Below are positions 1 through 27,190 of a DNA stretch of 27,190 nt, piece after piece. The stretch comes from a virus. The DNA lies in the IMG/VR virus record IMGVR_UViG_3300036772_000237, positions 1-27,190 of that record; one strand, 5' to 3'. The notes under the pieces are model-generated. The model was not told where the DNA came from and ran no database searches. It saw only the letters and a list, made by a program, of their open reading frames with translations. Position 1 is the stretch's first letter. Each line of letters starts with the position of its first letter. Both the position numbers and the translations under genes were made by a program.

Positions 1-156
1 ACATGGGGGCGTGGTGCCCGCCTCTGGCTCACTGCTGATGGCAAGCTGACGGCACAGGATAAGGATGCCAACAGCAAGGCCAACGCACTGGCAGGCACAT
101 CATGGATCACCACCAATGCAGGTGACGTTGAGGGACGTGTGCGCCTGGGCTTCTGA
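1..156 (+). CDS. C-terminal end of a capsid decoration-type protein (DUF2190-like), partial
   Basis: An open frame enters from the left edge and stops at TGA 154-156, giving 51 residues that end in GDVEGRVRLGF. The run WLTADGKLTA, then ALAGTSWITT, then the EGRVRLGF ending resembles the C-terminal beta structure of DUF2190-type capsid cement proteins. This window has a separate full-length member of the same kind at 6562-6885, which ends GKAWEAAATNTTTIAVRLNG. The two C-termini share a layout but not close identity, so this is not a recent duplication. The position is odd: a head protein ends here, yet the next genes are not head-tail joining genes but a Nu1-like DNA-binding protein and RHH regulators. 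That suggests the left edge belongs to another phage or a satellite. The family call is by eye from 51 residues only; the coding nature is well supported by the open frame. Confidence 0.6.
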   Translation, partial: TWGRGARLWLTADGKLTAQDKDANSKANALAGTSWITTNAGDVEGRVRLGF

Positions 157-189
157 GTGGCAAAGCTTGTGCAACCCGGCACATTTTCA

Positions 190-239
190 AAAGGTACTCC
201 CGGTGGGGTACCCCTGCCACGGGTCATCAGCGCCCCGGC
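190..239. other. GTACC-centred inverted repeat between capsid end and Nu1-like gene; candidate packaging (cos-like) site
   Basis: The gap between the capsid-type gene and the next gene contains ggtac-tcccggtggg-gtacc, an inverted repeat, followed by a very GC-rich run with cctgccacgggtc and gccccggcc. In lambda-like phages the cohesive-end site lies just upstream of the small terminase gene, and a Nu1-like winged-helix gene starts about 75 bp downstream. The cos interpretation is inference from placement and symmetry; I do not recognise a known cos core. Confidence 0.25.
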
Positions 240-313
240 CAGAGGCTCATTTTTGAGTTTTGATCGCTGTTCATCATCATCACCACCAGGTCAGGAATAA
301 AAGGTTATAAATT

Positions 314-538
314 ATGAGGATGCGTTACCTTAAAGCCGATGAGGCCGCGATAAACGTTGTAAACGGTGAATATGTCTTCACTATCAGCGAAATAGCGAGA
401 ATGTTGGGCATTCATCGCCAGACAGTGAAGAAAATCATTGTAGACCAGAGGATTGAAAGTAAAGGGGTAGTGAAAACGTATAATCTTTATGCCGTGCGGG
501 ATGTGGCTAAATGGCATTTTAAAGCGCGGTGGTATTGA
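314..538 (+). CDS. Short Nu1-like winged helix-turn-helix protein (small-terminase DNA-binding domain only)
   Basis: This 74-residue protein starts at ATG 314, with a purine-rich aaaagg 9 bases upstream. Residues 24-45 (FTISEIARMLGIHRQTVKKIIV) form a clear helix-turn-helix. It is followed by a wing-like KGVVKTYNLYAVRDVAKWHF, the same layout as the N-terminal winged helix of lambda Nu1 and DUF1441-type small terminases. Those proteins run to about 160-180 residues because they add oligomerisation and large-subunit-binding regions; this one stops straight after the DNA-binding domain. It could be a decayed small terminase gene. It could also be a deliberately short protein, such as the packaging-redirecting proteins (Rpp) encoded next to cos in enterobacterial phage-inducible islands. 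The fold call is fairly safe; the role is inference. Confidence 0.55.
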   Translation: MRMRYLKADEAAINVVNGEYVFTISEIARMLGIHRQTVKKIIVDQRIESKGVVKTYNLYAVRDVAKWHFKARWY

Positions 539-697
539 TTTTTAGTGTAAAAAACTGCTTGCCGTCCCCCTCATCATGTATGCAGGTGTACGACCCCATT
601 ATTGCGGGGGTGCCTGATTTATACCTGTCGAAAGACCTGTGCAGGGCTTGCGGACACTTTTACCGATATCAGCAATTTTTCGCTTCCTGTTTGCGGG

Positions 698-760
698 TGG
701 GTGACAGTTGTCACCCAGTTACCGATTTGACAGGTAAAAGTGTCACCCACTTGTCACCCA
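698..760. promoter_or_regulatory. Array of TGTCACCCA sites upstream of the RHH gene
   Basis: Four copies of the 9-mer TGTCACCCA lie in the 80 bp before the start codon at 777. An inverted copy (698-706) and a direct copy (709-717) form a palindrome with perfect 9-bp arms and a 2-bp centre. Two more direct copies follow at 741-749 and 752-760, 11 bp apart, about one helical turn. A fifth copy lies inside the gene at 857-865. The array ends just before the ribosome-binding site cggagg (763-768). It is most simply the autoregulatory operator of the RHH protein; an iteron-type replication origin is the alternative. Only the repeats are directly seen. Confidence 0.6.
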
Positions 761-776
761 CCCGGAGGAATGCACC

Positions 777-980
777 ATGAAAACAGGCAACCGTAACGGC
801 AAATCTGTGAAAATTTACGCCCGGATTTCTCTCGAGCTGGCCGCTGAATTGGAAACTGTCACCCAGAGCGGGGAAACCCTGACGGATATCATTACGGCAG
901 CATTACGGGCAGAGATGGAACGTCGCAGGAGCCAGACCGGAGCGGTGCAGAGTGAACCACCGGAACGTAACTGGATTTAG
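777..980 (+). CDS. Small ribbon-helix-helix-type DNA-binding protein
   Basis: This 67-residue protein has a strong Shine-Dalgarno (ggagg at 764-768) ahead of ATG 777. The pattern KSVKIYARISLELAAELETVTQSGETLTDIITAALRAEMERRR, with an N-terminal strand, helix, turn and helix, is that of a ribbon-helix-helix (MetJ/Arc/CopG) protein, which acts as a dimer with the strand in the DNA major groove. The TGTCACCCA array directly upstream is the obvious candidate target. It is followed after 16 bases by the 65-aa gene at 997, so the two are probably co-transcribed. No phage structural function is suggested. I cannot name a specific family member. Confidence 0.6.
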   Translation: MKTGNRNGKSVKIYARISLELAAELETVTQSGETLTDIITAALRAEMERRRSQTGAVQSEPPERNWI

Positions 981-996
981 CCCCGGAGCCATCAGT

Positions 997-1194
997 ATGG
1001 AAAAACTCAGTCATGAAGCATTGAATGCAGTGCTGACAGAAATGGCCCACCAGCAGGGCCATGCGCTTAACGCACAAGACCGGCTGATATTACGCACCCG
1101 CATTACTGCATCGCTGGCAGCCAAAGAACGCCACCGGCAGCGGATGAATGCAGCATCCTACCAGTGGAAAAAACCAGGCAGACTGCGCCGTTGA
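997..1194 (+). CDS. Small basic hypothetical protein
   Basis: ATG 997 is preceded by ccggagcc (Shine-Dalgarno core GGAG at 985-988) and gives 65 residues beginning MEKLSHEALNAVL. The frame is also open upstream to an ATG at 952, but that would overlap the preceding gene by 29 bp without a better ribosome-binding site, so 997 is chosen. The protein is helical by composition. Its middle, SLAAKERHRQRMNAAS, and its end, WKKPGRLRR, are strongly basic, suggesting nucleic-acid or acidic-protein binding. It lies 16 bp after the RHH gene and ends 9 bp before a hairpin. I do not recognise the family. Confidence 0.5.
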   Translation: MEKLSHEALNAVLTEMAHQQGHALNAQDRLILRTRITASLAAKERHRQRMNAASYQWKKPGRLRR

Positions 1195-1202
1195 ACAATA
1201 AA

Positions 1203-1228
1203 GGACGACTGCCATTATGCAGTCATCC
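1203..1228 (+). terminator. Hairpin after the small gene pair, probable transcription end
   Basis: The arms ggacgactgc (1203-1212) and gcagtcatcc (1219-1228) pair over 10 bp with one mismatch around a cattat loop. It lies just after the stop codon at 1192-1194. The following run aattattt is only a weak U-tract, so a terminator role is likely but not certain. Confidence 0.4.
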
Positions 1229-1660
1229 AATTATTTAACATTGTGGAAGTGAGAGGAGGTTATTATTCCACTGGCCGTCTGCATAGATGCGAATGTAATT
1301 GCTTTTCCTGTTAGGATCCTGATTTGCACTGTGTCTATTGCTGACCGTCACAGTGACTACCTTGGTCATATCTGAGTTGAACTCAGTTTTGTTGCGGTTA
1401 TAAAGTCTGTTTACTGATTTATCATCGGAATCTCAAGAGTCTCAGCCATATGAGTGCTGCTGGCCCATAAATTGCGGCAGGCACTCTGGCACAGTCCCCT
1501 CTCAATTATCCCATCATGGAACAGGGTTACGAATTATACAGACGTATAATTGGCTTTTGCATGCCATTTTTTTTCGTTTTTTTATGCTCATATGCGGACT
1601 CAAATGTGGACTATATAGAAACGCTGAAATGTAGTTATTTCCTTTCTATCAGTAGTTTAC
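1229..1660. other. AT-rich non-coding stretch ending at the terminase truncation
   Basis: No convincing gene is seen here. The composition drops to clearly AT-rich, with homopolymer runs such as a T-rich tract near 1565-1583. A short open frame starting at 1516 lacks protein-like composition and simply runs into the terminase in another frame. At 1592-1612 there is a tandem near-repeat (atgcggact, caa, atgtggact). The stretch ends where recognisable large-terminase sequence begins, so it probably holds a recombination junction. Confidence 0.5.
1592..1612 (+). repeat. Tandem 9-mer (atgcggact / atgtggact), possible integrase arm-type sites
   Basis: Two 9-mers differing at one base are spaced 12 bp apart start to start, in AT-rich DNA about 70 bp before the truncated terminase. 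Closely spaced short direct repeats near an element end are typical of tyrosine-integrase arm-type sites. No integrase gene or duplicated core is visible in this window, so this remains inference. Confidence 0.25.
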
Positions 1661-1681
1661 CGTTTATTTACTTCTTCCTGG

Positions 1682-2797
1682 ATGGAAGGTCCGGCAGCCG
1701 CTTACCAGAGCTGGCAGCAACTGGTTTACAAACTACTGACCGCCGAGCAGGAATATGAAGTCAACGGCAGCGAAGAAACTCTCAAGACGGTAATCAATAC
1801 CGACTGGGGATTACCCTATCTGCCGCGCGCCAGCCTCGAGCAGCGCAAAGGTGACGAACTTCAGTTGCGTGCGGAGCTGGTCGAAAAACGCAGGGTTCCG
1901 GCAGGTGTTCAATTTATGGTGGCGACCGTCGATGTTCAGGGCGGTAAGAACCGCCGCTTCGTCGTTCAGGTAATTGGCTATGGTGCCCAGGGAGAGCGAT
2001 GGATTGTCGATCGCTACAACATCACGCAATCCATGCGATGTAATCCTGAGGGCGAAAGCCTGCACATTGACCCGGGCAGCTATCCCGAAGACTGGGATTT
2101 ATTACGCACTGATGTGCTCGATAAAACCTGGGCGCTCGATGGCGAACCCGGAAAGCGGATGAGCCTGCTGGCAATGGGGGTGGATTCCGGCGGTGAAGAT
2201 GGTGTTACCGACAACGCCTACCAGTTCTGGCGCCGCTGCCGGCGTGATGGTCTGCAACGCAAAGTCTGGTTATTCAAAGGTGACAGTCAGACACGCAGTA
2301 AACTCATTACCCGTACCTTCCCGGACAATACAGGCCGCTCAACACGTAGGGCAAAAGCGGCTGGTGATATCCCGCTTTACCTTCTTCAAACCAATGCACT
2401 TAAAGACCGGATCAACAACGCACTATGGCGCGATGTACCGGGGGCGAACTATGTCCACTTTCCGGACTGGCTGGGTAGCTGGTTTTACGACGAACTGACC
2501 TACGAGGAGCGTTCAGTAGATGGCAAATGGACTAAACCCGGCAAGGGCGCTAACGAAGCGTTTGACCTCATGGTGTATGCGCATGCTCTGGTCATTCTCC
2601 ACGGTTACGAAAAGATTAAATGGCCTGATGCGCCAGAGTGGGCGCGTCGTGAAACCTATCTTGTGGATGAGCCCGCAACGGATGCGCCAGTTGTGGCAGC
2701 AGTTGCGAAACCGCTACCGGCAGTATCAGCAACAAAGACAAAGAAACCAGCCCACGAATCGCCATGGGCACCATCTAAATCAGGAGGCTGGGTGTGA
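1682..2797 (+). pseudogene. Large terminase subunit, GpA family, 5'-truncated (C-terminal nuclease half)
   Basis: The open frame gives 371 residues matching only the C-terminal part of GpA-type terminases, which are usually about 640-700 residues. Recognisable parts are the linker AAYQSWQQLVYKLLTAEQEY, TDWGLPYLP, the nuclease strand MGVDSGGEDGV with candidate metal-binding aspartates, KGDSQTR and the C-terminal NEAFDLMVYAHALVI. The N-terminal ATPase with its Walker A and B motifs is absent, and nothing upstream in any frame supplies it. Just before ATG 1682, the +1 frame reads FYFFLDG and the gene frame resumes with GPAAAY. Removing one A from ctggatggaagg would join them, so a single-base frame slip sits at the break. 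The ATG is therefore probably not a native start. The reading frame downstream is intact and overlaps the gpW-type gene. Confidence 0.8.
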
Positions 2798-3012
2798 TGC
2801 TTAATGATATTCAGGACATGGTCCGGAAATACACCGACGCAGAGATAGCAATCCTCGGGGGGAAATCCATCACCTTTAACGGTCAGCAAATGACAATGGA
2901 AAACCTGAGTGAAATCCGTAGGGGACGCCAGGAGTGGGAACGCAAACTTGCCACCGCATCTTCAGCAAGGAATGGACGGGGTGGGTTCAAACTGGCGAGG
3001 TTCAGACAATGA
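2797..3012 (+). CDS. W: Head-tail joining protein, gpW family
   Basis: This 71-residue protein has its ATG at 2797 overlapping the terminase stop (TGATG), with aggagg 9-14 bases upstream. An overlapping GTG at 2794 is possible but less well placed. The sequence (helix DIQDMVRKYTDAEIAILGG, hairpin KSITFNGQQMTMENL, helix EIRRGRQEWERKLA) follows the alpha-beta-beta-alpha plan of lambda gpW. Lambda gpW (68 aa) enters the portal channel after DNA filling and forms the platform for the next head-tail proteins. Length, position between terminase and portal, and fold pattern agree. Confidence 0.8.
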   Translation: MLNDIQDMVRKYTDAEIAILGGKSITFNGQQMTMENLSEIRRGRQEWERKLATASSARNGRGGFKLARFRQ

Positions 3013-4514
3013 GTGCCCTCGACAACCTGATTGGATTCCTTTCACCTGGCTGGAAAGCAGGAAGACTCAAATCCCGCATGATGATCCAGGCCTACGAGGC
3101 TGTATTGCCAACACGAACCCACCAGGCAAAACGTGAAAACCGATCAGCCAATCAGTTGACGCAGTTTGGAGGTCGCTCACTACGAGAACAAGCCCGCTGG
3201 CTGGACTGTAATCACGATCTGGTTATTGGTCTGCTCGATAAGCTCGAGGAACGCATCGTCGGGGCGAATGGCATCATTGTAGAACCCCAACCCTTACTGA
3301 AGTCAGGCGCGGTTTCCAGTGAACTTGCTAAGCAAATCCGCGGCAAATGGGCTGAGTGGTCAGTCTCGCCGGATGTGACGGGGCAATTTACCCGACCGGT
3401 ACTTGAACGGCTTATGGCACGCACCTGGTTGCGTGACGGGGAAGTGTTTGCGCAGCTTGTGAGTGGTACCGGCAATGGATTAACACCAGTTGCGGGTATT
3501 CCCTTCTGGCTGGAAGCCCTCGAGCCTGATTTTGTCCCGATGGAGCGGAGTGAACCGGCCAATAAATTATGCCAGGGCATTTATCTCAATGACTGGGGGC
3601 GACCAACCAAATACATGGTGTACAAAAATCTGCCAGCGGAAGGAATGAGGCAGGGCGAGACAAAAGTTATCGGTGCCGAGAGCATGTTGCACCTCAAATT
3701 TATGCGTCGCCTGCATCAGATCCGGGGTAATTCAATGCTGGCTGGTGTTTTGATACGTCTTTCTGCGCTCAAAGAATATGAGGATTCTGAACTGACCGCA
3801 GCGCGTATTGCTGCGGCGCTGGGCATGTATATCAAAAAAGGGGACGGGCAGACCTATCCGGAGGACGCGTCAGGCGAAAGCCGTGAGCTGGATATCCAAC
3901 CCGGTATGCTCTTTGACGATCTTCGGCCTGGTGAAGATATCGGGATGATTAAATCAGACCGCCCGAACGCTAACCTTGAGTCTTTCCGTAACGGGCAACT
4001 CCGCGCCGTGGCAGCAGGTTCACGAGGGAGCTTTTCCAGCATCGCACGTAATTATGACGGCACATACAGCGCACAACGCCAGGAGTTGGTGGAGACAACC
4101 GAGGGATATTTCGTCCTGCAGAACGCCTTCATTGCCGCTGTTACCCGCCCGATATACCGCGCCTGGCTGAAAATGGCAATCGCCTCAGGCCAAATCACGG
4201 TACCGAATGGGGTTGATAGAGAGTCTCTCTATAGCGCTGTTTTCTCGGGGCCGGTAATGCCGTGGATTGACCCGGTTAAAGAGGCAAATGCCTGGAAAAT
4301 ACTGCTACGCGGCGGTGCAGCTACAGAAAGTGAATGGGTGCGTGCACGTGGCGCGAATCCGGATGATGTGAAACGCCGCCGAAAAGCGGAAGTCGACGAA
4401 AACCGCAAGCAGGGGCTGGTGTTTGATACCGACCCGGCTAATGACAAAGGAGCCACCAGTGGCCACGAAGAAAAACCGGGTAATGAACCGACCGAAAGCC
4501 AGCGCAAAAAATAG
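3009..4514 (+). CDS. B: Portal protein, lambda gpB family
   Basis: This 501-residue protein starts at ATG 3009, overlapping the gpW stop (ATGA). The frame is open further upstream, but that would lie inside gpW. The N-terminus MSALDNLIGFLSPGWKAGRLKSR is followed by QAYEAVLPTRTH, SLREQARWLDCNHDLVIGLLDKLEERIVG, FWLEALEPDFV and HLKFMRRLHQIRGNSML, all typical of the lambda portal family. Portals form the dodecameric ring at one capsid vertex through which DNA is packaged and ejected. The C-terminal tail is charged (RRKAEVDENRKQG...TESQRKK) and its coding DNA overlaps the start of the protease-capsid gene by 56 bp, so translation of the two is probably coupled. The length is normal and no defect is seen. 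Confidence 0.92.
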   Translation: MSALDNLIGFLSPGWKAGRLKSRMMIQAYEAVLPTRTHQAKRENRSANQLTQFGGRSLREQARWLDCNHDLVIGLLDKLEERIVGANGIIVEPQPLLKSGAVSSELAKQIRGKWAEWSVSPDVTGQFTRPVLERLMARTWLRDGEVFAQLVSGTGNGLTPVAGIPFWLEALEPDFVPMERSEPANKLCQGIYLNDWGRPTKYMVYKNLPAEGMRQGETKVIGAESMLHLKFMRRLHQIRGNSMLAGVLIRLSALKEYEDSELTAARIAAALGMYIKKGDGQTYPEDASGESRELDIQPGMLFDDLRPGEDIGMIKSDRPNANLESFRNGQLRAVAAGSRGSFSSIARNYDGTYSAQRQELVETTEGYFVLQNAFIAAVTRPIYRAWLKMAIASGQITVPNGVDRESLYSAVFSGPVMPWIDPVKEANAWKILLRGGAATESEWVRARGANPDDVKRRRKAEVDENRKQGLVFDTDPANDKGATSGHEEKPGNEPTESQRKK

Positions 4515-6480
4515 CTGGTTCCGGATGCAGGCGCAGGAAGGTAACTCCGCCGACATCTATATCTACGATGAAATTGGCTACTGGGGTGTGACGGCAAAAC
4601 AGTTCGTGGCCAACCTTAAAGCGCTGGGTGATATCACTAATATCAACCTTCACATTAACTCCCCTGGTGGTGATGTCTTTGATGGCATCGCCATTTTTAA
4701 TGCCCTGAAACACCATGGCGCGTCGATTACCGCTTATATCGATGGCCTGGCTGCATCGATGGCATCAGTCATCGCGATGGTGGGTAATCCGGTCATCATG
4801 CCGGAAAACACCATGATGATGATCCACAAGCCGTGGGGCTTTACCGGTGGTGACGCGAACGACATGCGTGACTACGCCGACTTGCTGGATAAGCTCGAGG
4901 GCGTACTTATCCCGGCTTATATGGCAAAAACCGGAAAGTCTCAGGAAGAGATTGCCGCCATGCTGGAGGACGAGACCTGGCTTTCCGGTGCTGAATGCCT
5001 GGCGCTGGGTTTTGCCGACGAAGTTACTCCATCCCTTCAGGCTATGGCCTGTATTCAGTCAAAACGTATTGAGGAATTCGAGAAGATGCCACGCACAATC
5101 CGCAACATGATCACCCCACCACGCAATACCGTGCCGCGAGAGCCGCTGCAAAATACCCCTGTGCAGACAACCAACGCGCCGGAAAACATCAACGAAACTG
5201 AAATTCGCCAGCAGGTGCTGACCGAGCAGAAAGCGCGTGTAAACGGCATTAAAGACTTGTTTGCCATGTTCGGTGGTAAGCATCTGGAGTTGCAGGAACA
5301 GTGTGTTTCTGATGTTGAATGCTCCATCGCACAAGCCAAAGATAAGCTGCTGGCTGAACTGGGCAAGAGCGCGACACCATCTAACAAAACAACCCAGACA
5401 CAGACTCAGGCACATGTTTACGCGGGTAACGGTAACTTTGTCGGGGATGGTATCCGTCAGGCGCTGATGGCGCGTGCCGGTTATGAAGATTTGCAGCGCG
5501 ATAACGTTTATAACGGCACAACGTTGCGTGAACTGGCGCGTATGTCACTGACAGAGCGCGGTTTCGGTGTGGCAGCTTATAACCCGATGCAGATGGTCGG
5601 CTTTGCACTGACCCACAGTACGTCTGATTTCGGTAATATCCTGCTGGATGTGGCAAACAAGGCACTGTTGCAGGGTTGGGACGAATCGGCAGAAACCTTT
5701 GAGCAATGGACCAAAAAAGGTCAGTTGTCAGACTTTAAAACAGCTCACCGTGTCGGTATGGGTGGTTTTCCTTCCTTGCGTCAGGTGCGTGAAGGTGCGG
5801 AGTATAAGTACATCACCACTGCCGACAAAGGCGAAACCATCGCGCTGGCCACCTACGGTGAAATCTTCTCTGTGACCCGCCAGGCTATTATTAACGACGA
5901 TCTGAATCAGCTGACCGATGTGCCGATTAAGATGGGCCGCGCAGCAAAAGCCACTATCGGCGATCTGGTTTACGCCACGCTCACCGCCAATGGCAAACTG
6001 TCCGATGGTAAAGCACTATTCCACGCTGACCATAAAAACATGGCCACCGGCCCTATCGATATCGGCAATCTGGACAAAGGCCGCCAGTTAATGCGCACCC
6101 AGAAAGAGGGTGAGCGTGCACTGAACATTCGTCCGGCTTACATTCTAGTTCCGGTTGCACTGGAAACGGTCGCCAACCAGACCATCAAGTCTGCCAGCGT
6201 GAAAGGGGCGGATGTGAACGCCGGGGTCATTAACCCAATCCAGAACTTTGCTGAAGTGATTGCCGAAGCGCGTCTGGATGATGCTGATCCAGCGGCGTGG
6301 TATCTGGCGGCTGCGCAGGGTACTGACACCATCGAGGTGGCGTATCTGAATGGCGTGGATGCGCCATACATCGACCAGCAGGAAGGTTTCACCACTGACG
6401 GCATCGCGACGAAAGTACGTATCGATGCGGGTGTGGGGGCACTGGATTATCGTGGTCTGGTGAAATCCACTGGTAAGTAA
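4459..6480 (+). CDS. Prohead protease (ClpP-type) fused to major capsid protein
   Basis: The start is taken as GTG 4459 because aaaggag (4446-4452) lies 6 bases upstream; ATGs at 4441 and 4483 have no comparable site. The product is 673 residues. Residues 30-205 are a ClpP/S14-type protease with HINSPGG (66-71), the nucleophile in GLAASM (Ser100), MIHKPWG (His123) and an Asp around 141-144. After a low-complexity linker (about 215-320, PPRNTVPREPLQNTPVQTT) comes a complete HK97-fold major capsid protein, including FGNILLDVANKAL, ISVTRQAIINDDLNQL and AFHADH-like LFHADHKNM. Fused protease-capsid genes are known from Gifsy-type prophages; lambda uses separate genes for protease/scaffold and capsid. 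The protein would assemble the shell and release mature capsid subunits by proteolysis. The frame is intact. Confidence 0.9.
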   Translation: MATKKNRVMNRPKASAKNSWFRMQAQEGNSADIYIYDEIGYWGVTAKQFVANLKALGDITNINLHINSPGGDVFDGIAIFNALKHHGASITAYIDGLAASMASVIAMVGNPVIMPENTMMMIHKPWGFTGGDANDMRDYADLLDKLEGVLIPAYMAKTGKSQEEIAAMLEDETWLSGAECLALGFADEVTPSLQAMACIQSKRIEEFEKMPRTIRNMITPPRNTVPREPLQNTPVQTTNAPENINETEIRQQVLTEQKARVNGIKDLFAMFGGKHLELQEQCVSDVECSIAQAKDKLLAELGKSATPSNKTTQTQTQAHVYAGNGNFVGDGIRQALMARAGYEDLQRDNVYNGTTLRELARMSLTERGFGVAAYNPMQMVGFALTHSTSDFGNILLDVANKALLQGWDESAETFEQWTKKGQLSDFKTAHRVGMGGFPSLRQVREGAEYKYITTADKGETIALATYGEIFSVTRQAIINDDLNQLTDVPIKMGRAAKATIGDLVYATLTANGKLSDGKALFHADHKNMATGPIDIGNLDKGRQLMRTQKEGERALNIRPAYILVPVALETVANQTIKSASVKGADVNAGVINPIQNFAEVIAEARLDDADPAAWYLAAAQGTDTIEVAYLNGVDAPYIDQQEGFTTDGIATKVRIDAGVGALDYRGLVKSTGK

Positions 6481-6498
6481 TCAGAACGTCCCTCCAGT

Positions 6499-6518
6499 GG
6501 CCCGAAAGGGCTTTTTTT
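6499..6518 (+). terminator. Hairpin with T-tract after the capsid gene
   Basis: GCCC-gaaa-GGGC (6500-6511) with a flanking G-T pair and seven T residues (6512-6518) gives a compact intrinsic terminator in the middle of the head operon. In a late operon read by antitermination it probably trims expression of downstream genes relative to the capsid rather than ending the transcript. Confidence 0.7.
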
Positions 6519-6561
6519 ATGTCTGAAAAACGGCTCCTGAATGGGGCCGTGGAGCTTAGCG

Positions 6562-6885
6562 ATGAAAAACTATTTTCAGGATGGTCACACCATCACTCTT
6601 AAAAATACAGGAACTGATGCCATTCTCAGTGGTACTCCCGTGCCTGTTGGCGATGTGTTGGCCGTGGCGATTGCCGATATTCCTGCAGGGGGATTTGGCG
6701 AAGGGATCACGAGCGGTGTGGTCGTATTGCCGAAACTGGCAACCGACAACATTCCCCAGGGGAAAACGCTGAACATCAAAGATGGCAAAGTGCAGATTGA
6801 TGCAACCGGTGCTACGTCGGCTGGAAAAGCCTGGGAGGCGGCTGCGACAAATACCACCACGATTGCCGTTCGTCTGAACGGCTAG
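6562..6885 (+). CDS. Capsid decoration (cement) protein, DUF2190-like
   Basis: This 107-residue protein starts at ATG 6562, preceded by tggagc (6550-6555). The frame is open to an earlier ATG at 6541, but that lies in the terminator-proximal spacer with no ribosome-binding site. The sequence is rich in short beta strands and glycines (HTITLKNTGTDAILSGTPVPVGDVLAVAIADIPAGGFGEGITSGVVVLPK) and ends GKAWEAAATNTTTIAVRLNG, the pattern of DUF2190 proteins found next to Gifsy-type capsid genes. Such small trimer-forming proteins stabilise the expanded shell, as gpD does in lambda. Placement straight after the capsid gene agrees. The family is assigned by eye. Confidence 0.75.
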   Translation: MKNYFQDGHTITLKNTGTDAILSGTPVPVGDVLAVAIADIPAGGFGEGITSGVVVLPKLATDNIPQGKTLNIKDGKVQIDATGATSAGKAWEAAATNTTTIAVRLNG

Positions 6886-14415: not shown

Positions 14416-14571
14416 ATGGAAAGGAAAGATGTAAAGACTACACTTCGCTACCCACAGAAAGTCAAAGATGCGTTTAAGCGGATTGCAGAGGAGGAAGGGC
14501 TTTCCGAGAATGCAGTGCTTGTACAGGCATTGGTATGGGCATTACGGTTCAGAGGGCAAATGCATGCTTAG
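14416..14571 (+). CDS. Arc-like small ribbon-helix-helix repressor
   Basis: This 51-residue protein from ATG 14416 (atgaggtgattt upstream contains gaggtg) reads MERKDVKTTLRYPQKVKDAFKRIAEEEGLSENAVLVQALVWALRFRG. The strand TTLRYP, first helix QKVKDAFKRIAEEEG and second helix SENAVLVQALVWALR align with P22 Arc (53 aa; FNLRWPREVLDLVRKVAEENGRSVNSEIYQRVMESFK). In P22, Arc shuts off the ant promoter shortly after infection to prevent toxic over-expression. Here it is also the first gene of the antirepressor operon, and its last 8 bp overlap the longer start of the Bro-N gene. Confidence 0.75.
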   Translation: MERKDVKTTLRYPQKVKDAFKRIAEEEGLSENAVLVQALVWALRFRGQMHA

Positions 14572-22295: not shown

Positions 22296-22715
22296 ATGAA
22301 TCTCATCAAGCCCGTTTTTCTACGCGAAGTTATCACTATTCCTCTGTTCAGTGAGCCTGTGAAATGTGGTTTCCCGTCACCAGCACAAGACTACGTTGAA
22401 GAGCGCGTAGACATTAGCCAGTTAATCGTACCTCATCCCGCCAGCACCTATTTTGTCAGGGCTTCGGGAGACTCAATGATAGACGGGGGGATCAGTGACG
22501 GCGATTTGCTGGCTGTGGACTGTTCGCGCAGCGCCACGCATAACGATGTGGTCATTGCTTCAGTTGATGGTGAATTTACGGTCAAACGTCTCCAGCTTTA
22601 CCCGACAGTCCAGCTTAACCCGATGAATACCGCATACTCGCCAATTCTCATTGGCAGTGAAGGTACGCTCAATGTTCTGGGCGTGGTCACGTTTGTCATT
22701 AAATCGATGAGCTGA
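22296..22715 (+). CDS. umuD: UmuD, SOS-cleaved subunit of DNA polymerase V
   Basis: This 139-residue protein is the same length as E. coli UmuD. Self-cleavage elements are all present at canonical positions: Cys24-Gly25 cleavage site (VKCGF), Ser60 nucleophile in GDSM and Lys97 base in TVKR. RecA-ssDNA filaments stimulate cleavage to UmuD', which joins UmuC to form Pol V. A LexA box is immediately upstream and umuC follows after 2 bp. The N-terminal 23 residues differ from the E. coli chromosomal form, as is usual for mobile-element copies (compare MucA, RumA, ImpA). Carriage next to tail fibre genes points to a prophage-borne copy. Confidence 0.95.
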
Positions 22716-22717
22716 GC

Positions 22718-23992
22718 ATGTTTGCCCTTGTTGATGTCAATTCGTTCTACGCCAGTTGCGAAACAGTGTTCAGACCGGACCTGGAAGGCAAGCCTGTGGT
22801 CGTGCTCTCGAACAATGACGGCTGTGTCATTGCAAGGAGTGCTGAGGCTAAAAGCATTGGCGTCAAAATGGGCGATCCGTACTTTAAGCAAAAGGATCTT
22901 TTCAGGCGATACGGCGTTGCGTGTTTCAGCTCAAACTATGAGTTATATGCCGATATGTCGGATCGGGTGATGACGGTACTCGAGGAGATGTCACCTCGCT
23001 GCGAAATTTACTCAATTGACGAAGCCTTCTGTGACCTGAGCGGGGTTCGCAACTGCCGAAACCTGGAAGATTTTGGCCGAGAGATCCGACAGAGCATTTT
23101 ACTTAGAACGCATTTAACAGTAGGTGTCGGGGTTGCGCAAACCAAGACTTTAGCCAAGCTCGCGAATCATGCGGCGAAAAAATGGCAGCGGCAAACCGGT
23201 GGCGTTGTTGACCTGTCTAATGTGGAGAAACAGCGCAAATTAATGGCATATTTCCCCGTTGATGAGGTCTGGGGTGTTGGTCGCCGCATAGCTAAAAAGC
23301 TTGAGTCCATGGGGATCAAGACGGTTCTGCAACTGGCTGATACTGATATCCGGTTTATCAGGAAGCACTTCAATGTGGTGCTCGAGTGCACGGTGCGTGA
23401 ACTACGTGGCGAGCCCTGTCTTGGACTTGAAGAGTTTGCTCCGACTAAGCAAGAAATCGTCTGCTCACGTTCGTTCGGGGACCGTATCACCGATTACGAG
23501 CAAATGCGCCAGGCTATCTGTAGTTATGCTGCTCGAGCAGGGGAGAAACTACGGGGTGAACACCAGTTCTGTCGCTATATTTCCGTATTCATCAAAACAA
23601 GCCCCTTTGCTTTAAACGAGCCCTATTATGGTAATCAGGGGGCAGTAAAGCTGATGACACCCACGCAGGATACGCGGGATATTATTGCCGCAGCGATGCG
23701 CAGTCTCGATAAAATCTGGAAAGAAGGCCATCGCTATCAGAAGGCCGGTATTATGTTAGGTGATTTCTTTAGCCAGGGCGTCGCCCAGCTCAATCTGTTT
23801 GATGATAATGCCCCACGACAAAATAGCGCGGCGTTAATGGAGGTATTCGACCATCTTAACCATAAAAATGGGAAGGGTGCGTTGTACTTTGCCGGGCAGG
23901 GTATCCAGCAGCAATGGCAGACGAAACGGGATATGCTCTCACCTCGCTACACGACGAGATGGTCAGATTTGCTGGTGGTAAAGGTCAAATAG
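22718..23992 (+). CDS. umuC: UmuC, Y-family translesion DNA polymerase V catalytic subunit
   Basis: This 424-residue protein (E. coli 422) has [14 protein letters not shown] with Asp6, [10 protein letters not shown] with Asp101-Glu102 (the metal-binding carboxylates), a helix-hairpin-helix region around 180-210 ([17 protein letters not shown]) and the beta-clamp-binding motif QLNLF near residue 357. It synthesises DNA across lesions at the price of mutations. The frame is intact and it is translated just after umuD. A small hairpin follows the stop. Expression would be SOS-controlled through the LexA box at 22258. Confidence 0.96.
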
Positions 23993-24008
23993 GCACAATT
24001 TCTTGTGC
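23993..24008 (+). terminator. Small hairpin directly after umuC
   Basis: gcacaa (23993-23998), loop tttc, ttgtgc (24003-24008), starting at the base after the umuC stop. It has no T-tract, so it may be an mRNA 3' end structure rather than a terminator. The 200 bp that follow are AT-rich and hold only a possible promoter. Confidence 0.3.
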
Positions 24009-24134
24009 AAACTCAAGTATTTTCAAAAGTCATCTGTTTTGTACCTTTGGCTTATGTTGTATTTCATAATCGAAGCTACTGAAGTTGGTGGTAGAATGCA
24101 TTAAACTCCAAGTTAATTTCCCTGTGATAAATTA

Positions 24135-24164
24135 TTGTTTCTCAATCATTTAGAACCTTAGTAT
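24135..24164 (+). promoter_or_regulatory. Possible promoter for the EEP cassette
   Basis: TTGTTT (24135-24140) and TAGTAT (24159-24164) with an 18-bp spacer lie 48 bp before the TTG start. It is the best sigma70-like pair I see in the AT-rich gap between umuC and the cassette. In AT-rich DNA such matches are common, so the call is weak. Confidence 0.25.
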
Positions 24165-24211
24165 ATTTGAGTTGTAGTTTAACAATACACAATCCGAGTG
24201 GAGGATTTTGA

Positions 24212-25129
24212 TTGGACTTTCGTTTCGCATTCTGGAATTGCGCCATGTCGCCACCCGGTAGCAACCTCATGCGTTCGCCAACTGATGTTGCTGATGCGGT
24301 TGACGTGATTTCTGACCTATTTTCGAAAAGTAACATTTCATTATTAGCTTTATGCGAAGTTAATAAAGCATCTTTTGCACATATTTCAAACGCACTTAAT
24401 GAAATGGGATTGGCACTTTCTTCTGAATTCATGCCGGATAAGACTTCAACTGGAAGTGAGTTTGATATAGGTTATTTCTATGACTCTTCAATCGTTGATG
24501 TTCAACATGGACTTGCCCATACAGGTATGCTTGGTACATCTGCTGTAAAAATAGCTCAGCAATTGCAAGTAGTTGTTATTGAGGATTGCCCATCTATCAT
24601 AAATGTTCTTGTCTCACACTGGTCCAGTCAACTTCTAAAAATAGCAGATGACATAAGAGATGAGTGTTCGAAAGGTCTTCGTAGCTTCGTTTTAAAGTTA
24701 ATTAGTGAAAATCAACAGGTTATACTGATGGGGGATTATAATGAAGAACCGTACTCCCACAATTTGTTTAAAAACATGCGCGCTACTAACGATCGCGCTC
24801 TGGTACTCTCGGAGCCTAACTTTTGGCTCTATAATCCATACTGGAAAGCACTTGCTGCGAGAATGCCATTTACAGTAGACGAACAACAACATGACTTCGG
24901 AACCTGCTACAGCAAAGCAGGGAATCGCAACCATTGGTCAACGTTTGATCAAATCATTTTTTCATCTCACTTCATAAATGATGGACCATGGTACCTAAAA
25001 GAATCTGCAACAGGCGTTGCTTTGACCAATAAACTGCGTGCAGCAATAATGGATAGTAAACATTGCTTTGACCACATGCCAGTGATCGGATGTATTAGTA
25101 AAAGAGAGGCTAAAAATGTTTCAGTTTAA
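24212..25129 (+). CDS. Endonuclease/exonuclease/phosphatase (EEP) fold enzyme
   Basis: This 305-residue protein starts at TTG 24212, chosen because ggagg (24200-24204) lies 7 bases upstream and the next ATG (24245) would cut away a catalytic strand. The EEP (DNase I-like) active-site set is complete and in order: FAFWNC (Asn9), LCEVN (Glu49), VSHWSS (His136), MGDYNEEP (Asp175, Asn177), STFDQIIF (Asp246) and CFDHMPV (Asp287, His288). The family includes nucleases, phosphodiesterases and lipid phosphatases, and the substrate cannot be told from sequence. No signal peptide or membrane segment is seen, so it acts in the cytoplasm. It overlaps the next gene by 14 bp. The base composition is much more AT-rich than neighbouring umuC, indicating separate origin. 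A lysogen-expressed defence or toxin role is inference. Confidence 0.8.
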   Translation: MDFRFAFWNCAMSPPGSNLMRSPTDVADAVDVISDLFSKSNISLLALCEVNKASFAHISNALNEMGLALSSEFMPDKTSTGSEFDIGYFYDSSIVDVQHGLAHTGMLGTSAVKIAQQLQVVVIEDCPSIINVLVSHWSSQLLKIADDIRDECSKGLRSFVLKLISENQQVILMGDYNEEPYSHNLFKNMRATNDRALVLSEPNFWLYNPYWKALAARMPFTVDEQQHDFGTCYSKAGNRNHWSTFDQIIFSSHFINDGPWYLKESATGVALTNKLRAAIMDSKHCFDHMPVIGCISKREAKNVSV

Positions 25130-25583
25130 AGATCTTATTCAAACGGGAATGGAGTCTGCAAAAAGGGTTGAGGAAAATCGTAGAATGGTTGATGAGGTTT
25201 TTACTTCATTGAACATTGAATTAGAAAAAGAAACAAATGGCCTTATTACTATTCAGCGCTATAGGAATATACCAGGTGCTCTAAAGAATCTGGTAGATAC
25301 TTATAATGCGGCAAACAAGAATGGGCTAGAGCTATCATTAGACAAAAAACCTAATAAAGGAACGTTGAACGTAGTTCTTAACAATGATGCAAACGCCTCA
25401 ATTGCTCGTTGGGAGCAAGATCCCGAAGGGTATCCTTTTACTATAGAATTTATGGGGGAACGCACAGATTGCTGGGACCAAGAGGCTGTGGCCAATGCGT
25501 TAGGTCAAATTATAGTGTCGGGACAATTATGGTTAAAAGTGAAGGAGCTACAGTCTAAAACTCAAAAGGAAGAAGGAGAGTAA
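25116..25583 (+). CDS. Unrecognised partner protein of the EEP enzyme
   Basis: This 155-residue protein starts at ATG 25116 with aagagagg upstream, overlapping the EEP gene by 14 bp in another frame. It opens with a helical region (MFQFKDLIQTGMESAKRVEENRRMVDEVFTSLNIELEKET) and continues in mixed alpha/beta: GLITIQRYRNIP, KGTLNVVLNNDANASIARWEQDPEGYPFTIEFMGERTDCWDQEAVANALGQIIVSGQLWLKVKEL. It has no signal peptide, membrane segment or DNA-binding motif that I recognise. It is acidic overall with a charged end (QSKTQKEEGE). Tight coupling with the EEP gene suggests the two act together, for example as regulator, inhibitor or recognition subunit. I do not know this family. Confidence 0.65.
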   Translation: MFQFKDLIQTGMESAKRVEENRRMVDEVFTSLNIELEKETNGLITIQRYRNIPGALKNLVDTYNAANKNGLELSLDKKPNKGTLNVVLNNDANASIARWEQDPEGYPFTIEFMGERTDCWDQEAVANALGQIIVSGQLWLKVKELQSKTQKEEGE

Positions 25584-25608
25584 TACCGATTTTATTTACC
25601 ACAAAAAT

Positions 25609-25646
25609 CGAGCTTATCCAGATTTTATACAAGGCAAGCTCGTTTT
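25609..25646. terminator. Hairpin after the EEP cassette
   Basis: cgagctt (25609-25615) pairs with aagctcg (25636-25642) over a 20-base loop and is followed by TTTT. It lies 26 bp after the 155-aa gene and faces the converging SRAP gene. The large loop makes it a moderate candidate. The rest of the gap to 25744 holds nothing recognisable. Confidence 0.45.
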
Positions 25647-25744
25647 ATTGGTTGGAAAGGATATCTTAAAGTGCCTTTACATCTCCGCAGTTAGATTTGA
25701 ATGTTTAGGCTTGGGTGCGAGAATTATTTGCTTTTGCCCGACAG

Positions 25745-26425
25745 TCATATTTTATTGTCAGTATTATTAATAAGTTCTGGGCTTTGATTTTTCACATTCC
25801 CGACCGCTCGTGTAACCGCATGCCAAGTAAATTCATCTGCTGGCACCGTGGCATCATGGGCTAGTTCGCTGGCCTGAGTATCGGATGTATTCGGATCTAT
25901 CCACTCAAGTGCTGATTCAGGAGTGAATACCAAAGGCCTGCGATCATGGATATCGACCAAACCTTTATCAGCCGCTGCAGTCACAATCAAAAATCCCTCT
26001 GCTTCATCCCCAATATCAAATGGCTGTTTACCGATTGCTGCAAAGAAAAGAGGTTTCTTATCTTTCCGGTAAATATAGTAAGGCTGTTTTTTGTCTCCCT
26101 CCTTTTTCCACTCATACCATCCATCAGCAAACACAATTGCCCGACCATGGTTCCATAACGGTTTGAACATCCGGCTTGTGGCCGCAGTTTCAACCCTGGC
26201 GTTTATGAGTGGAGCTTTGTCCCACCATCCGGGGGCGTAGGACCAGAGTACAGGATCGAGGTGGAAAGTATCATCGCGGCTATTCAATAAGAGAACCTTA
26301 GTGCCTGGCGCCACGTTGTAACGACCAATCGGTTCGGGATCGTAGGGAATATCGTTTCCGGCTTCTTCAGTGAGAAAGGATAGATAGTCGTCTCGCGACT
26401 GGATTTGAGTGAAGCGTCCGCACAT
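25745..26425 (-). CDS. SRAP-domain abasic-site crosslinking protein (HMCES/YedK family)
   Basis: This 226-residue protein is read on the minus strand from ATG 26425. This start is chosen over an ATG six codons upstream because SRAP proteins require Cys2, exposed after Met removal, and ggagg lies 5 bases upstream. Active-site residues match E. coli YedK numbering: Cys2 (MCGRF), Asn75 and Arg77 (INARVET), Glu105 (GWYEWKK), His160 (DIHDRRPL). The family covalently traps abasic sites in single-stranded DNA through a thiazolidine link, protecting the strand from breakage. It is the last gene after dinI-like and an 80-aa gene on the same strand, so it is probably SOS-induced from the LexA box at 26999-27018. 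It is a phage-borne copy, distinct in context from chromosomal yedK. Confidence 0.93.
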   Translation of the reverse strand: MCGRFTQIQSRDDYLSFLTEEAGNDIPYDPEPIGRYNVAPGTKVLLLNSRDDTFHLDPVLWSYAPGWWDKAPLINARVETAATSRMFKPLWNHGRAIVFADGWYEWKKEGDKKQPYYIYRKDKKPLFFAAIGKQPFDIGDEAEGFLIVTAAADKGLVDIHDRRPLVFTPESALEWIDPNTSDTQASELAHDATVPADEFTWHAVTRAVGNVKNQSPELINNTDNKI

Positions 26426-26492
26426 ATTTACCTCCAGATCCAAGACTGAAAGTATAGTAGTCAGTTCGTCCGCTATTCAGAGGCTATTGATG

Positions 26493-26735
26493 TTATGCAT
26501 CATCATGGCCGGAATTTTTGCCCAGCCTTACTGCTGCCATTATTGCCTTTCCTGAGGTTTCAAATTCAGGAAGAGGCAGTACAAGCCATTCCCCTCGCTG
26601 AAACTCAAGAAGGCAAGATTGAGAACCCGTTGTGCTTTTAATTGCAAAGCTTCGGAGATCGGAGGATGGGAAGGGTAAGCGTTCCCCTGGAAGCGGAAAG
26701 TAAATTCTTACGCCTGATATGATCATGTTGTCCAT
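26493..26735 (-). CDS. Small hypothetical protein between dinI-like and SRAP genes
   Basis: This 80-residue minus-strand protein starts at ATG 26735, 5 bases after the dinI-like stop; a second ATG three codons in is also possible. The sequence MDNMIISGVRIYFPLPGERLPFPSSDLRSFAIKSTTGSQSCLLEFQRGEWLVLPLPEFETSGKAIMAAVRLGKNSG suggests a small beta protein. The close spacing after a LexA-controlled gene argues for SOS co-expression. I do not recognise its family; it may be a conserved companion of phage DinI genes. Confidence 0.6.
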   Translation of the reverse strand: MDNMIISGVRIYFPLPGERLPFPSSDLRSFAIKSTTGSQSCLLEFQRGEWLVLPLPEFETSGKAIMAAVRLGKNSGHDDA

Positions 26736-26740
26736 AACAG

Positions 26741-26980
26741 CTACTCGCTAACGAGCCAGAACTCGGCTTCCTCAAACATCTCTTCAACCAGGCGATTTAG
26801 TTTTTCTTTTTCAGTCTTCGTGCAGTCGCTGTTTACAGCATTAGCTTGCATAGGCTTAACGCGAACATCTGCTGCAGGGAAAATACAATGCACGCGTTTC
26901 GTCAGTTCTGACTGGATGATTTCTTTCGCGCCAGCTAACCCTTCTACATTGCGTTTGTCATAAACGAGTTCAACGTACAT
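26741..26980 (-). CDS. DinI-family SOS modulator
   Basis: This 79-residue protein (E. coli DinI 81) is on the minus strand from ATG 26980 with ggagag upstream. The frame is open further upstream, but that part crosses the LexA box. MYVELVYDKRNVEGLAGAKEIIQSELTKRVHCIFPAADVRVKPMQANAVNSDCTKTEKEKLNRLVEEMFEEAEFWLVSE follows the DinI fold: an N-terminal strand, a helix, DVRVKPMQ-type strand and an acidic C-terminal helix (EKLNRLVEEMFEEAEFW) that mimics DNA and binds RecA. DinI stabilises RecA filaments and limits UmuD cleavage. As a phage protein it probably tunes RecA during induction. Confidence 0.9.
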   Translation of the reverse strand: MYVELVYDKRNVEGLAGAKEIIQSELTKRVHCIFPAADVRVKPMQANAVNSDCTKTEKEKLNRLVEEMFEEAEFWLVSE

Positions 26981-26998
26981 GATGCTCTCCAATAAATT

Positions 26999-27018
26999 AA
27001 CTGTGTTTATATACAGTA
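26999..27018. promoter_or_regulatory. LexA box upstream of the dinI-like operon
   Basis: Read on the minus strand the site is tactgtatataaacacagtt, identical to the umuD box at 19 of 20 positions. It is 18 bp upstream of the dinI-like ATG, the same spacing as at umuD. It would control dinI-like, the 80-aa gene and probably the SRAP gene. Confidence 0.93.
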
Positions 27019-27068
27019 ATAATTTTACTGGATTTGAGCAAGCCCCGGAAACGAAAAAACCCGCACAG

Positions 27069-27190
27069 TGAAGTGAACCCCGAAAGTTGGACACCCAACA
27101 AGTAGGGGTTTTGCGTTTAATGGGTAAAAGAAAATACACAACTGAATTTAAACGTCAGGTTGTTCTCCACTTCCTCAACAGTGGTGATGG
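27069..27190 (+). mobile_element. IS3-family insertion sequence (IS150-group-like), left end
   Basis: The terminal repeat starts TGAAGTGAACCCCGAAAGTT followed by GGACAC, the TG-start and CCCC...TTGGAC layout of IS3-family ends close to the IS150 group. A transposase orfA begins 51 bp inside. The element runs past the right edge, so its full length and right end are not visible. The bases just before it (aaaaaacccgc, 27054-27064) look like the left arm of a terminator whose right arm is displaced. Confidence 0.85.
27120..27190 (+). CDS. IS3-family transposase OrfA, N-terminal part
   Basis: The 23 visible residues, MGKRKYTTEFKRQVVLHFLNSGDG, continue off the window. The K-x-K-Y-x-x-E-x-K-x-x-V-V-x-H-x-x-x-S-x-D-G pattern is the start of the helix-turn-helix OrfA protein of IS150-like elements, which binds the element ends. 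OrfA and OrfB are normally joined by a -1 frameshift to make the transposase, and OrfB would lie beyond the window. Confidence 0.85.
   Translation, partial: MGKRKYTTEFKRQVVLHFLNSGD

Follow-up and report, generated by a model that had tools for sequence, protein, structure and literature searches.

A PICI-type satellite end lodged in the large-terminase gene of an mEp213/LLS-like prophage

Introduction

What stands at the left edge of this DNA, where a record that begins mid-feature runs through a cos site and a few small genes into a large-terminase gene that is itself incomplete? The window analysed here, the whole stretch of 27,190 bases, is an IMG/VR virus record, and a first-pass annotation had taken its left edge for a satellite end lying against a prophage. 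We conclude with high confidence that window positions 1–1684 form the right end of a PICI-type satellite about 10–13 kb long, inserted by a tyrosine integrase in terL of an mEp213/LLS-like prophage so that the ATPase and nuclease halves of the gene are parted. The window, a metagenome contig, starts inside the satellite; the integrase, the attL and the N-terminus of TerL are known from relatives alone.

The HE-PICIs are the point of reference for such an arrangement. PMC10111431 places the HE-PICI 11capE in 50icd, describes these elements (in 2023) solely for relatives of one integrase, and gives 400 bits to 11capE as the integrase cutoff of its survey.

Results

The prophage terL gene is split at a shared att core

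The first gene of the prophage (1682–2797, plus strand) encodes the endonuclease part alone of a GpA-type large terminase. In alignment with the TerL proteins of LLS, Gifsy-2 and cdtI it begins at FW/MEGPAA, about residue 330, the ATPase half being absent from the window; the nearest intact phages, L088 and L089, are similar to the window from 1671 on. The split falls at the att core CTGGATG (attR, 1678–1684, plus strand; terL codons FWM/EGPAA), and therefore the TerL of the window lacks its ATPase half. A doubled arm-type motif, GGACT-N7-GGACT, with half-sites 12 bp apart, is located about 78 bp to the left of the core (1594–1612, plus strand). Next on the same strand, at 2934–6885, come the genes for portal, a ClpP-protease/major capsid fusion and decoration that belong to the embedding mEp213/LLS-like prophage.

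The junction pattern is found in one other IMG/VR record, L171, whose satellite end (..TTTTATTTACTTCTTCCTGGATGGAAGG..) enters terL at a base identical to that of the window, and the sequence TTTATTTACTTCTTC-CTGGATG-GA[AG]GG is common to the window, L178/L171 and L181. The whole interval is seen in the independent contig L178, which presents phage TerS, TerL residues 1–331, integrase, AlpA, Bro-N, primase, SSB, RHH, ClpP-capsid fusion, cos, full-length TerS and the TerL C-terminal part, with CTGGATG at both its left and its right junction. If the two terL flanks of L178 are joined, they give an open 705-codon gene with no stop, reading IASFWMEGPAAAYQ. Integrase, AlpA and primase are all present in both same-site relatives, L178 and L181.

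The exact left junction (attL) occurs in 15 IMG/VR contigs. A query of left junction plus integrase, starting at the terL junction, has matches in 89 of 5426 complete E. coli genomes, and in 82 of these the match spans at least 80% of the query. The window attR (1560–1700) matches 19 E. coli genomes, always at a "terminase gpA endonuclease subunit"; 17 of these 19 are among the 25 integrase matches listed, with integrase and attR on one strand and, as taken from match coordinates, 9.8–13.2 kb apart. SCU-171 and SCU-125 are annotated complete-chromosome examples, and in these two and L178 both ends of the terL insertion are seen.

The shared junctions and the restored frame argue that the window presents a satellite lodged in terL, and therefore not a neighbour of the prophage. 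The first-pass annotation, which had the satellite abutting the prophage and stopped the feature at 1228, is to be corrected on both counts: the element is embedded, its real end is the att core, and the interruption of terL had gone unreported. Simple adjacency of a satellite and a truncated prophage was ruled out by the shared attR. A split at this terL codon was seen in none of the 45 Enterobacteriaceae genomes with a terL match (392 species genomes), and so the terL-embedded arrangement is not general. The unsplit species genomes had suggested a junction artefact, an idea dropped after the E. coli and IMG/VR examples. No match was returned by an Rfam search, by a search for near matches to window 1–1800 in E. 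coli, by window 1–1700 against plasmids or by an exact 25-mer near 1215, and the 470 bases before 1671 had no E. coli match at the sensitivity used.

Gene content of the satellite end

From left to right the satellite end carries the tail of a DUF2190 gene, cos, a 74-aa wHTH gene, an RHH gene, a phrog_7271 gene and attR. A head gene, cos and a terminal phrog_7271-type gene make up the late zone of a Gram-negative PICI, and all three are here. Every element listed by the first-pass annotation is present in the sequence, and its reading of the left edge as the packaging end of a satellite holds, with cos and a gene for a TerS DNA-binding domain in the slot that rppA takes in EcCICFT073.

Positions 1–156 (plus strand), in the satellite late zone, are the 3′ end of a gene for a DUF2190-type head decoration protein, of which the final 51 residues are encoded here; the gene had been called capsid-type, and the product is not the major capsid protein. 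The 51-aa stretch has 98% amino-acid identity to satellite L168 and 90% to phage contig L169, and the complete L168 relative matches phrog_122 head decoration (1.6e-24). The window agrees with the L168 satellite copy and not with the phage type (TWG vs TWA, DANSK vs DSGNK), while the phage copy of L179 carries the L169-type residues. Embedding entails two DUF2190–cos copies, one of the phage and one of the satellite, and both are seen in the L168/L179 composite. Because the 51-aa stretch matches the L168 satellite copy best, an intact satellite beyond base 1 is more probable than a recombination remnant. L088 (3930–4349), L089 (2144–2485) and L169 (4812–5156) also have a DUF2190-type decoration gene right before cos at the end of the genome, besides one in the usual place behind the capsid gene.

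What had been described as a cos-like palindrome is a genuine cos, as positions 193–281 align to the stretch that immediately precedes DUF1441 terS genes in E. coli prophages. Alignments place the cos core, the GGTACTCC box and cosN, at 193–245 (plus strand; exact cut positions deduced) and the left cohesive end, GGTCATCAGCGC, at 222–233 (plus strand), with cos base 1 set at 222 through the annotated cohesive end of phage LLS. Two phage contigs, L169 and L124, have exactly the same unusual cosN, GGGTCATCAGCGCC. The cosN type CCACGGGTCATCAGCGCCCCGG seemed degenerate, yet it is exact in L169, which has full-length terS and terL; the suspicion had come from its difference from the GGGCGG type and was ruled out by the L169/L124 recurrence. 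A candidate R3-like TerS site, CATCATCATCACC, occupies cos bp 51–63 (272–284, plus strand), and the start codon (ATG) of the 74-aa gene is cos bp 93. For comparison, lambda TerS contacts cos bp 55–63, the PICI R3 has been proposed at bp 48–65, and rpp of PICI-C starts at cos bp 102 (PMC9026076). The 74-aa gene, directly behind cos with its start near bp 100, is thus in the position of an rpp gene.

The RHH-like gene of the first-pass annotation is confirmed at 777–980 (plus strand; 67 aa), with a homologue behind the 74-aa pseudogene of L046. Repeat inspection finds operator-like repeats, TGGGTGACA / TGTCACCCA, at 694–764 before it; several TGTCACCCA/TGGGTGACA repeats are seen before and within the gene and are probably its operator. 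The 65-aa product of the last gene (997–1194, plus strand) matches phrog_7271 (4.5e-25), typically the last gene of enterobacterial PICIs.

A short TerS-like protein behind cos

The gene at 314–538 (plus strand), in the rpp/terS slot, encodes a 74-aa winged-helix protein. Its match to terminase small subunit phrog_141 (1.3e-8, residues 16–71) is restricted to the N-terminal domain, in line with the earlier description of the protein as a DNA-binding domain only. It has the N-terminal wHTH of phrog_141-type TerS; the central oligomerisation and C-terminal TerL-binding regions are absent, and 6 of 6 intact copies end at residue 74. The five intact relatives, 78–85% identical to that of the window, are likewise 74 residues long, and their genes come immediately after cos at the ends of satellites with a ClpP-capsid fusion. 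The relatives on long enough sequences carry an integrase. A search for the island without the adjoining prophage, proposed in the first-pass annotation, leads to L002 and L009, which carry integrase, an AlpA-type gene, primase, RHH, protease-capsid fusion, the same cos and the 74-aa gene. Searches with the 74-aa protein gave no match in phage records and generic HTH matches only in the PDB by sequence.

Between the window and these relatives pS is 0.65–0.77, with synonymous sites near saturation, and pN is 0.08–0.12; by this substitution pattern the 74-aa gene is under purifying selection. The L046 copy is a pseudogene with a stop codon. A broken full-length TerS as the present state is ruled out by the intact homologues of equal length and the strong constraint. 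The first-pass annotation had reckoned with precisely such a broken gene; the protein is a conserved short one, but L005 still has, downstream of the gene, a decayed terS 3′ end (positions 6318–6470) that resembles TerS residues 108–158. The 74-aa form may therefore stem from a truncated TerS, yet it is kept as a short protein.

AlphaFold2 predicts a winged helix with mean pLDDT 76, and the model ends after one C-terminal helix. Structure matches include the viral packaging DNA-binding domains 7lw0, 7lwr and 7lxs and RppC (6hn7) at Z 5.1–5.8, but they are middling, and MerR-type regulators and excisionases match as well. Other satellites at this terL site (L178, L181, SCU-125) bear a full-length TerS instead; the embedded lifestyle therefore does not depend on the 74-aa protein.

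The recognition helix and the R3 site

The recognition helix HRQT of the 74-aa protein corresponds to a (CAT)n R3 at cos bp 51–63. Both the RQT helix and a CATCA-type R3 are present with 6 of 6 intact 74-aa genes. Among 54 distinct phage TerS/cos pairs, 37 combine a TerS RQT helix with a CATCA-type R3, three have RQT without such a site, none has the site without RQT and 14 have neither; the comparison covered 61 distinct helix/site combinations, and since the TerS pairs are related sequences, phylogeny confounds these counts and the association does not amount to independent events. When the helix is masked, the 74-aa framework scores 16.2 bits with TerS type B and 0.8 with type A, and members of type B use repeats other than CAT. 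Common descent of the entire domain thus does not by itself account for the match of helix and site, because the masked framework belongs with type B, and helix and R3 site appear to travel together. These data support the prediction that the 74-aa protein binds at its own cos. The (CAT)n R3 class is also that of the family of the embedding phage (L088), and because the L088 relatives share the repeat class, the protein could bind the helper cos too. Across window 272–284 and the cos regions of L002–L009 and L049–L194, DUF1441-type TerS helices are found with trinucleotide-phased R3 sites as RQT-CAT, HRDT-GGC and NRNL-GCAGCAG; such pairings look like a readable specificity code.

Comparison with Rpp and other satellites

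The first-pass annotation had proposed Rpp-like packaging redirection. The slot behind cos and the probable role agree with this; homology to Rpp was undetected. Against RppA the 74-aa protein gave no BLASTP alignment, and hhalign returned a probability of 6% over 20 columns. Rpp proteins combine a wHTH with helices alpha3–alpha6 in 139–154 aa; at 74 aa this architecture is not present, and the helices with which RppC holds TerS are absent. The late zone of EcCICFT073 likewise has capsid/decoration, cos, a TerS-DNA-binding-domain-type protein, a phrog_1561/7271 gene and att (PMC6739421; PMC9026076), its phrog_1561 relative coming after rppA. Its RppA is a 144-aa protein related to TerS phrog_57, whereas the 74-aa protein is related to TerS phrog_141, and EcCICFT073 lies between chromosomal roxA and phoQ, not inside a prophage gene. 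Rpp switches specificity, but the 74-aa protein need not, since its R3 class is that of the embedding phage family. The slot and the probable role are thus common with Rpp; common ancestry is not supported by sequence comparison.

In common with the HE-PICIs of PMC10111431 are a PICI within a prophage late gene, in the same orientation and with no replacement sequence at the junction; a doubled arm motif with half-sites spaced by 12 bp at comparable distances; and a four-zone gene order, here present in relatives. The GGACT-N7-GGACT motif keeps the same 12-bp spacing both in the window, where it lies about 78 bp to the left of the core, and in the L178 attL, where it lies about 141 bp to the right. 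The differences from those HE-PICIs are in the integrase, the arm motif and the helper. The integrase of the group, taken from L178, scores 86.7 bits at 26% identity to 11capE, and fis-PICI integrases score 358–374 bits in the same comparison, values from pairwise BLASTP that are only roughly comparable with the TBLASTN scores of PMC10111431. A 25-row tree separates a clade of 11capE, the L168 integrase, EcCICFT073 and the fis integrases (96/94) from one in which the terL integrases group with P4 and others (96/95); many tips of the latter were picked by similarity to the query, so that sampling is lopsided. The L178 integrase is accordingly outside the published HE-PICI integrase clade. The doubled TGTATTGC motif is absent from the window, L178 and L181, which have GGACT-type motifs, and the helpers use a GpA-type terL with a DUF1441 TerS. 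The embedded configuration is thus already known, and the integrase lineage seen here appears to extend it. The integrase cutoff makes it less likely that one of the gene A sites of PMC10111431 coincides with this terL codon.

L168, read with L179 (IMGVR_UViG_3300036772_000104), presents a second satellite-in-terL site at about TerL residues 98–116, some 230 codons upstream. It resembles the window in its place within terL, a DUF2190 of 98% identity and a shared cosN type, and differs in the terL site, an 11capE-like integrase (459 bits, 50%), the TGTATTGC arm motif and a full-length TerS of its own. The fis/tRNA PICIs (L002, L003, L009) have the same cos layout, 74-aa gene and ClpP-capsid fusion, but they are sited at fis or beside a tRNA-Met gene, outside prophages, and have no DUF2190 between the capsid gene and cos.

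Other features of the prophage

The far end of the prophage (22296–27139) holds an SOS-linked cluster of UmuD-like S24 peptidase, UmuC-like polymerase, SRAP and DinI-like genes. Between polymerase and SRAP (24212–25583) lie an Exo_endo_phos-like 305-aa gene and a 155-aa gene; the latter has no Pfam match, and the interval has no PADLOC match. In the tail gene region, the gene at 14468–15226 matches Bro-N weakly (3.8e-5). At the right contig edge (27115–27190) the start of a reading frame resembles, by eye only, an IS3-type transposase.

Discussion

A model for the embedded satellite builds on the observed insertion, its site, orientation and gene order, the frame restored in a relative, the conservation of the 74-aa protein and the match of helix and site. 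The insertion would keep terL in two pieces, silent until excision; excision would restore the packaging motor, and the helper would be unable to package before the satellite leaves. Late transcription of the helper would enter the satellite, and helper terminase would use the satellite's copy of a helper-type cos. The 74-aa protein, having no TerL-binding tail, would act with or against helper TerS at R3, most likely by sitting on the (CAT)n R3 and partnering a helper TerS that brings TerL. As with Rpp, packaging would then favour satellite DNA at the expense of productive TerS homodimers. The RHH protein probably regulates the operon through the repeated TGTCACCC sites. We would give the cassette part of this model, a satellite cos with a 74-aa/TerS partnership that biases packaging, slightly less than an even chance. 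With the R3 class the same, helper TerS might use the satellite cos unaided. As an overall explanation, the embedded satellite together with the cassette mechanism is the best we have, and we consider it likely.

The 74-aa protein might instead be a dominant-negative competitor that occupies the (CAT)n R3 on helper cos and blocks the helper without escorting terminase. The R3 class common to the satellite and type A helper phages and the missing TerL-binding tail both fit such a competitor, but the satellite cos has the same R3 and would be blocked too unless dosage or spacing differs; we regard this as unlikely.

Another possibility is that the window is a collapsed remnant, in which recombination between the two DUF2190–cos copies deleted terS, the N-terminal part of TerL and most of the satellite. 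The order lysis genes, DUF2190, cos in L088, L089 and L169 fits such an event, as does the presence of both copies within one L168/L179 record. This reading, under which the prophage would be dead and lysis genes would adjoin base 1 on the left, is improbable, as the 51 residues of the window are nearer the satellite copy of L168 (98%) than the phage copy of L169 (90%).

To read the 74-aa protein as an ordinary transcription regulator or an excisionase-like wHTH is about equally improbable. Weak matches to the MerR-like phrog_2474 and HTH_17, along with structural matches to MerR regulators and excisionases, point that way; against them stand TerS phrog_141 as the best family, the fixed distance behind cos in all copies, the helix/R3 match and the AlpA-type gene that such satellites have of their own near int. 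An assembly chimera of satellite and prophage reads is hardly credible: the window is a metagenome contig whose exact junction 19-mer is in one other IMG/VR record only, but the junction is identical to the base, in orientation and in core, in L178 and in complete E. coli genomes.

With the embedded satellite as the preferred reading, we tentatively propose that satellite insertion in the helper terminase gene arose at least twice, by unrelated integrase lineages, and that here, while the motor is held split, a minimal TerS made of the DNA-binding domain, parallel to Rpp and from another TerS family, determines at cos which DNA is packaged. Dozens of complete E. coli genomes have a second integrase lineage at terL, annotated there only as a truncated terminase beside an integrase. 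This suggests that satellites have evolved repeatedly to hold a helper's late gene hostage and that some defective-looking prophages may be restored upon exit of their satellite. The 74-aa protein offers a minimal system for asking how little of TerS suffices to steer packaging, and the correspondence of helix and R3 triplet a direct route to testing cos recognition.
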